A stretch of DNA of 64,000 bases from a virus. Under the pieces are notes generated by a model, which was not told where the DNA came from, did no database searches, and worked only from the letters and a program-made list of their open reading frames with translations. The translations under genes and the position numbers were made by a program. The stretch covers positions 124,001-188,000 of IMG/VR virus record IMGVR_UViG_3300037010_001227; one strand, 5' to 3'. Of this stretch, positions 9,209 to 48,317 are shown in pieces (within the stretch, counting starts at the first letter, position 1; the number at the start of each line of letters is the position of its first letter).

Positions 9209-9259
9209 AATCTTCTGAAGGTAGTAGCTGCTAATCCCAGCTACTACATTGAGTAGATT
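9209..9259 (+). repeat. Structured intergenic repeat, copy 2
   Basis: The flanks AATCTTCTGAAG and ATTGAGTAGATT match copies at 2339 and 10057. The central stem is a different sequence, GTAGTAGCTG with CAGCTACTAC, so base pairing rather than sequence is kept in the middle. Confidence 0.75.
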
Positions 9260-9282
9260 GAGATTGTAATGAAAATAAATTG

Positions 9283-9313
9283 GAAGTTTCATAATTAAGC
9301 CTTATGAAACTTC
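9283..9313 (+). other. Intergenic hairpin with a 12-bp stem
   Basis: GAAGTTTCATAA pairs perfectly with TTATGAAACTTC across a 7-base loop. It lies in the 168-base gap 9207-9374, right after repeat copy 2, and has no T tract. Confidence 0.55.
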
Positions 9314-9374
9314 TAATGATTTATAGAATACACGGAATAGTTAATAAGGGATATCGACTCCCTGGGAGGTAGTT

Positions 9375-10058
9375 ATTAAGATAATTTCGAAGTTTCATGA
9401 CTACTACGATAGCCTGGTAAATTTTGGTGGAAGTGATAACACTAAAGTATACAATAGAACTACGTATACTTTGGAATCCTATCAATTTCCTCCGAATCAT
9501 AATAAAAGACTACCTGACTTGTATTTAATGTTTGATGGTCATAGATTTGTTTCTTCTTACTATTACAGCAAGAATAATAACGTTAAAATTGAAAGTTTTG
9601 TTGTTATCTTTACTGGTATCTCTTATACTGGAATCAGAGTAGAATTCATTAAGCCTGAACAAAGTGAAATAACTTACCATTACACTTTCGAAAGTCTTTT
9701 TAAGTATCTCAACAATATTGATCCTACTATTATTGAGAAACAAAAGAAACCTTTCATAGAGTTTTATGAGGGCAACAAATCTGAGTGTGCAAGAGATTGG
9801 GCAATCAACAACAAGATTATCATCGCTACTGATTGCACTGGACTTGGTAGTAGAAATACTTGGATTGCTAATCCTCAACTAGATAAGATTAGCTTTCAGA
9901 AAGTTCTTGATCCTTTCACAGCATTTCAAGAGTTGGAAATGTGGATTGGTGGAGTTCTGACTGATAACAAAGAGATCAGTCAAGTTTCCAATGATATTAG
10001 AATTCAGCAAGCTGGATTTGATCTTAAAACATCTTTCAGAAAACCAAAACAGTTTTAA
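9375..10058 (+). CDS. Hypothetical protein, 227 aa, with apparent ATT start
   Basis: GGGAGG at 9364-9369 sits 5 bases before ATT 9375, opening a frame that reads I-K-I-I-S-K-F-H-D-Y-Y-D and stays open to 10058. The nearest standard start in frame is TTG 9471, which has no ribosome site and would discard 32 clearly coding residues. M-K-I-I-S-K-F-H is the expected N-terminus, so ATT replaces ATG. Function unknown; the C-terminal part contains a helical segment rich in Phe and Glu. Confidence 0.65.
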   Translation: MKIISKFHDYYDSLVNFGGSDNTKVYNRTTYTLESYQFPPNHNKRLPDLYLMFDGHRFVSSYYYSKNNNVKIESFVVIFTGISYTGIRVEFIKPEQSEITYHYTFESLFKYLNNIDPTIIEKQKKPFIEFYEGNKSECARDWAINNKIIIATDCTGLGSRNTWIANPQLDKISFQKVLDPFTAFQELEMWIGGVLTDNKEISQVSNDIRIQQAGFDLKTSFRKPKQF

Positions 10059-10106
10059 TCTATTGAAAGATGGACTAATTAATTTTTAGTCCATCATTGA
10101 GTAGAT
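10057..10106 (+). repeat. Structured intergenic repeat, copy 3
   Basis: The flanks AATCTATTGAAA and ATTGAGTAGAT enclose GATGGACTA with TAGTCCATC. It begins within the stop codon of the preceding gene and ends 2 bases before the tRNA-like gene. Confidence 0.75.
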
Positions 10107-10108
10107 AT

Positions 10109-10191
10109 GTGCCGTTAGCCGATTTCGCCTTCTAAGCGATTATTCGTAGTTGGAGCTGCAAACGGGGGTTCGAGTCCCTCACGGCACACCA
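10109..10191 (+). tRNA. tRNA-like gene without a D arm, possibly Arg (UCU)
   Basis: The acceptor GTGCCGT/ACGGCAC, a 5-bp T stem with loop TTCGAGT, and an encoded ACCA are canonical. Between them only one hairpin is evident: TCGC/GCGA with loop CTTCTAA, giving anticodon UCU for AGA codons. It starts just 8 bases after the acceptor, with no D arm. About 23 bases separate it from the T stem. It is either a degenerate tRNA or an unusual tRNA mimic. Confidence 0.6.
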
Positions 10192-47761: not shown

Positions 47762-48317
47762 ATGCTTTGCAAACAATGTAATACAGAGTTTATACAAAAT
47801 AAACCACATCAAGTATATTGTTCAGAAACGTGCAGAAATTCTTACTGGGGTCATACATAAACAGTATGAAAAAAAATAAAAATAAAATAGCTAAAAAGAA
47901 TAATAATGATGAATATAGAAAGTATCAAAAAGAATTAACAAAACAACCATATAGAAAACAAGCAAGAAATGACTATTTAAAAGTAAACGAAAATCTGACA
48001 TAGTATTTAAATTAAAACACTCTATAAACGATAGATTACGTCACGAATTTTCTAATTTTAGTGTAGTTGAGTTAGAAAGTTATTTAGGATATTCTATTTT
48101 AGATTTATCTAATTATTTATTCCAAACAGATGAAGAAAAAGAAGAATATCTTGCTGGTAATTTAGAACTTGACCATATTATACCTTATAATTGGTATATA
48201 GTTTTAGCGTTAGGTGATGGCGAGTTTAAAAAATGTTGGTCCTTTGAAAATTTACGATTATTATCAAGTATAGACAATAAACAAAGAAGTAAAAAAATTG
48301 ATTGTGTTTTTAGTTAA
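47762..48317 (+). pseudogene. HNH endonuclease with zinc-ribbon N-terminus, broken
   Basis: MLCKQCNTEF...YCSETCRNSYW (zinc ribbon), a basic linker, then LELDHIIPYNWY and CWSFENLRLLSSIDNKQRSKK (HNH core) read in three successive frames. It is a + strand remnant and interrupts the GFVSN cluster between the radical SAM gene and protein 7. Confidence 0.7.

Follow-up and report, generated by a model that had tools for sequence, protein, structure and literature searches.

The DNA analysed here is a window of 64,000 bases (positions 124001-188000 in a virus record of 213,189 bases; 34% GC). The record comes from a tailed phage of large size; among the matches of its capsid gene are T4-like major capsid and major head proteins, and the record uses the standard genetic code. 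One frame of the window belongs to the protein family phrog_4243, opens with ATT and closes with a TAA stop codon (10056-10058). It is preceded by an in-frame TAA (9345-9347), and between that stop and the ATT there is no ATG, GTG, TTG or CTG; the earliest in-frame ATG, GTG or TTG is a TTG at 9471, 96 bases into the frame and devoid of a Shine-Dalgarno sequence. An earlier note on this DNA had described the string GGGAGG-TAGTT-ATT as the opening of an intact 227-codon frame and the TTG as its first standard start, lacking a ribosome site; re-reading of the bases confirmed the sequence, the frame and the coordinates, as well as the position and the bare context of the TTG. The features of the locus are collected in Table 1.

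Table 1. Features at and upstream of the ATT-initiated frame (window positions).
Feature	Position	Strand	Basis or remark
10-bp hairpin downstream of the preceding gene; CATTGAGTAGAT follows	9221..9247	+	
Degenerate upstream copy of the start region	9260..9297	+	29/38 identical to 9366-9403
ATG mini-frame MKINWKFHN-stop	9269..9298	+	fits the family N-terminus M-K-I-x-x-K-F-H
16-bp palindrome (hairpin)	9279..9317	+	left arm = upstream copy; right arm 9302-9317
22-codon leader frame MKLLMIYRIHGIVNKGYRLPGR	9304..9372	+	its TAG stop lies two bases upstream of the ATT
Shine-Dalgarno GGGAGG (GGAGGT pairs with the anti-Shine-Dalgarno), 5-base spacer TAGTT	9364..9369	+	
Downstream copy: Shine-Dalgarno, ATT and first ten codons	9366..9403	+	29/38 identical to 9260-9297
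Candidate ATT initiator	9375..9377	+	aligned with Met1 of other family members
227-codon frame, phrog_4243 family, ATT start	9375..10058	+	profile match, family alignment

The protein encoded by this frame matches the phrog_4243 profile over its full length (E 3.6e-19; residues 2-225 on 2-231 of 232). The family also includes protein T5.047 of phage T5, reaching it and several hundred T5-like records by way of intermediate members; the relatives compared here were drawn from IMG/VR, from annotated phages and from two bacterial MAG contigs. In the first family alignment, the initiator column that holds the ATT is Met in 27 of 27 other rows. At the DNA level, the start codon of each of 34 relatives aligns with ATT 9375 or adjoins it, and is ATG in 32 cases, GTG in two and ATT in none. 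The stretch IISKFHDYYD, which directly follows the ATT, is the most conserved of the family, and the N-terminal pattern M-x-I-I-S-K-F-H-D-Y-Y-D is present apart from its initiator residue; since this stretch is conserved immediately after the ATT, translation must begin at or upstream of it. The ribosome site had led the earlier note to place the initiator at the ATT, and homology independently fixes the same position. The frame thus has an AUU at the homologous initiator position, no standard alternative, and a GGAGGT at a spacing of five bases; it lacks the ATG or GTG initiator of the family, a difference that concerns expression and not family membership.

Conservation of the ATT in relatives found no support (0 of 34, none of them closer than about 33% identity), and relatives with ATG at this position, named in that note as part of the evidence to the contrary, do exist as far as these distant sequences go. 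A DNA search of phages, a search of viral contigs for an exact pattern that spans the start but allows any third base in the ATT, and a search of contigs with the same capsid gene, mostly short fragments, turned up no close relative. As far as can be seen, no other available sequence shares the ATT with this phage.

The Shine-Dalgarno sequence in front of the ATT falls in the strongest class of the phage, in which only 21 of 219 ATG genes have a match of at least six bases. A match of this length ahead of an ATT frame with 60 codons or more nevertheless occurs five times in the 213-kb phage, mostly within other genes; the pattern alone is thus not beyond chance, and the case for an ATT start rests on homology. 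Among 254 open frames surveyed, this gene is the only one whose best start is non-standard and combines a six-base Shine-Dalgarno sequence with relatives that fix the start, the remaining non-standard picks resembling the insides of genes, damaged frames (endonuclease-like ones among them) or very short ORFs. As a separate observation, a 75-codon frame at genome position 207373 (L038:1373) lacks any standard start among codons 1-45; it shows an AAGGA and an ATA that shares bases with the stop (TATAGT) of the gene before it, possibly a second AUN start; a search for relatives of this ATA candidate found none.

Regarding the condition of the gene, the earlier claim of an undamaged frame stood up: all 227 codons are intact, and 19 of 22 conserved columns (those kept in at least 20 of 22 other members) are retained, the three losses being Met1, Cys80 and a Pro near residue 147. 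With Met1 set aside, 19 of 21 near-invariant columns are kept. In a leave-one-out HMM comparison, the protein scores 20th of 23, which places it within the range of the family and not as an outlier; the codon usage of the gene lies at the 10th percentile among the phage's genes. These properties fit a gene that is functional but fast-evolving or foreign, and the loss of Cys80 and the Pro, together with the codon usage, is also compatible with early decay. An AlphaFold model of the protein reaches a mean pLDDT of 75. No Pfam domain matches it, the PDB holds neither a sequence match nor a confident fold match, and its viral fold matches are uncharacterised phage proteins only.

Beyond what the earlier note describes, the leader contains what appears to be a second version of the start region, offset by 106 bases, in which ATG 9269 is kept behind a weak ribosome site (GAG) and followed by a stop after nine codons. 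When the first 29 bases of the gene were compared with the whole record, this upstream copy was the best non-self match (23/29, the next being 20/29). In control comparisons over 38 bases, 245 ORF starts of the phage reached at best 26 identities and 33 relatives at best 24; nothing comparable to the copied start region lies upstream of these relatives, T5.047 included, or of the 245 other starts of the phage. A gapped local alignment of the leader with the gene start gave a weaker result, 43 of 2000 shuffles, which is only weakly significant and leaves the duplication short of certain. Based on the in-register, genome-wide and control comparisons, a partial tandem duplication of the start region is well supported, though not certain.

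In the same leader, the right arm of the 16-bp palindrome is complementary not only to its left arm but also to codons 4-8 of the gene, a second pairing that exists because the start region is duplicated; the duplex energies are -19.1 kcal/mol for the two arms and -14.8 kcal/mol for the right arm with the gene start. The leader as a whole folds better than 200 of 200 shuffles (z = -3.4). The initiation region at ATT 9375 is predicted to be partly paired, and the local fold over the ATT is no better than that of shuffled sequence, that is, not significant. A switch between the two pairings is permitted on paper, without comparative support, and coupling of the 22-codon frame to the gene is possible, such frames being expected frequently by chance. 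An identical CATTGAGTAGAT is found at 9247-9258 and at 10095-10106, in both places right after an intergenic hairpin (two different ones), so that the two occurrences flank the gene.

Taken together, we consider it somewhat probable (roughly 0.58) that AUU 9375 is the working start of the phrog_4243 protein, used at low yield with the aid of its Shine-Dalgarno sequence and arising after duplication of the start region. The tandem, partial duplication would have left an upstream copy that keeps the ATG and a downstream copy in which a strong ribosome site and an AUU join the body of the gene. The six-base GGAGGU would position the 30S subunit at a good spacing on AUU 9375, where fMet-tRNA would start inefficiently, at about a tenth of the level of AUG if AUU and AUA starts of Staphylococcus aureus are a guide. 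The AUU and AUA starts found experimentally in that organism have extended Shine-Dalgarno motifs; when the medium was poor, their expression was about 10% of that from AUG (PMC13009471). IF3 represses AUU-type starts in Escherichia coli and Streptomyces (PMC5472188); by analogy with such starts elsewhere, expression of the gene would be expected to be low and IF3-sensitive. Translation from AUU, its low yield and a restraint by IF3 are inferences; control by IF3, raised in the earlier note, is plausible, but no observation links ATT 9375 to it. In the phage itself, no IF3 gene scores over the Pfam cut-off (one sub-threshold hit contains stops), and no tRNA with a CAT anticodon or initiator tRNA was found.

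The main competitor, unlikely but to be taken seriously, is that the start was recently lost by a change from ATG to ATT after the duplication, leaving an early pseudogene or a strongly silenced allele. That the ATT is private to this phage, that what is left of the upstream copy is clearly broken, that Cys80 and a conserved Pro are gone and that codon usage lies in the low tail would all be in keeping with such a loss; the 227 codons without a stop or frameshift, the retention of most invariant residues and the six-base Shine-Dalgarno sequence kept at the right spacing speak against it. A recent loss would account for the open frame by the little time elapsed.

Less probable again is a base-call error or a minority allele in a phage population that carries ATG at 9375. 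ATT and ATG are one base apart, other members of the family start with ATG or GTG, and the record is a virus contig that derives from a metagenome; an error landing exactly on the start codon is nevertheless improbable a priori. Another contig from this type of phage agrees with the record over 2,539 bases, with 11 substitutions and no indels, seven of the substitutions falling in the capsid gene and five of those seven being synonymous. This agreement indicates an assembly that is not grossly error-prone, though it does not bear on the base at 9377 itself.

Two further proposals give the leader an active part. In the first, a long shot, the ATG-bearing decoy copy and the hairpin would form a self-derived attenuator that sets the use of AUU, or the copies would recombine and join the ATG to the gene body in some phages. 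In the second, which we regard as similarly improbable, the right arm at 9302-9317 would pair either with the upstream copy, leaving the start free, or with codons 4-8, blocking it, and ribosomes on the mini-frame or the 22-codon frame would set AUU use. Both pairings are strong on paper, the fold of the leader exceeds that of all shuffles and the 22-codon frame stops two bases before the AUU; however, the sequence duplication by itself produces the second pairing, the mini-frame has a weak ribosome site and, close relatives being absent, there is no comparative support. Finally, a protein of 195 residues starting at TTG 9471, which the earlier note had raised as evidence against the ATT, is very improbable, as the first standard in-frame start codon has no Shine-Dalgarno sequence and its use would delete the invariant N-terminal motif SKFHDYYD.

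Recoding of TAG was considered and rejected, the in-frame stop before the ATT being TAA and TAG ending genes normally in this phage. The phage does encode a tRNA of the amber-suppressor type with a CTA anticodon (ARAGORN: Pyl; L033:8156-8229 on the minus strand, genome ~65156-65229), despite which TAG has its normal role at gene ends.

In other phages, the phrog_4243 gene often lies beside tRNA genes, as annotated in Stenotrophomonas phage DLP_6, and homing endonuclease genes, as with hegF in T5 and in a Rhizobium phage; in such surroundings flanks are commonly rearranged, which may bear on the origin of the present arrangement. T5.047 (L076:3001-3699) adjoins hegF and lies behind an annotated T5 promoter, and the DLP_6 homologue (L027:1495-2348) is directly followed by a pseudo-tRNA, as is the gene described here. 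In the window, a tRNA-like sequence (10109-10191, plus strand; Rfam tRNA, 32.1 bits; missed by ARAGORN) comes directly after the gene and has perfect acceptor and T arms and an encoded CCA. Its D arm is nearly absent, its anticodon loop is TCT-like, and about 20 bases are inserted after the anticodon arm. Judged by eye, endonuclease-like frames elsewhere in the window, at 48096 (plus strand) and 59276 (minus strand), are broken: they carry frameshifts or lack a start.

Standard gene finders, being limited to ATG, GTG and TTG, would drop the most conserved residues of this protein or misplace its start; aligning the family is enough to place a non-standard start without an experiment. If the AUU is used, the locus is a simple system for studying the duplication of a translation start region together with a switch to a weak start codon, and expression of the phage gene should respond to the IF3 fidelity of the host.

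Among tailed phages, gene 26 of T4 has an AUU-initiated internal product. It shares with the present gene an AUU start in a tailed phage, but its AUU is an internal start that gives a shorter product, whereas AUU 9375 is the only start of its gene. The T4 gene 60 system also bears a likeness, in that a protein start is encoded upstream, a hairpin and a stop lie in the gap and a ribosome-site-like sequence precedes the point of resumption. Bypassing of this type was rejected: ribosome sliding is efficient up to about 56 nt (PMC11194080), and the two copies here lie 106 nt apart as against the ~50-56 nt of efficient sliding, with only nine codons before the stop in comparison with a T4 take-off codon at position 46. 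The infC gene of E. coli, which encodes IF3, has in common with the ATT gene an AUU initiator and a Shine-Dalgarno sequence at normal spacing, and IF3 would be expected to discriminate against the AUU of this gene too (PMC5472188). In infC, non-AUG starts occur in several bacteria and IF3 acts in an autoregulated feedback loop, whereas the present gene has an AUU that its relatives lack and encodes a protein other than IF3. In S. aureus, cvfC1 (AUU), ccpN and citZ (AUA) resemble the ATT gene in having a non-canonical AUN start offset by a strong Shine-Dalgarno sequence, but the starts of cvfC1 and ccpN are conserved and mapped by ribosome profiling (PMC13009471), and neither holds for ATT 9375. 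AUU starts with strong ribosome sites are thus of an already known kind; the duplicated start region is unusual. A parallel in product is T5.047, which belongs to the same family along its whole length and has the same N-terminal motif; its gene starts with ATG and has no copied start region upstream, whereas the gene described here has both the ATT and the copy.
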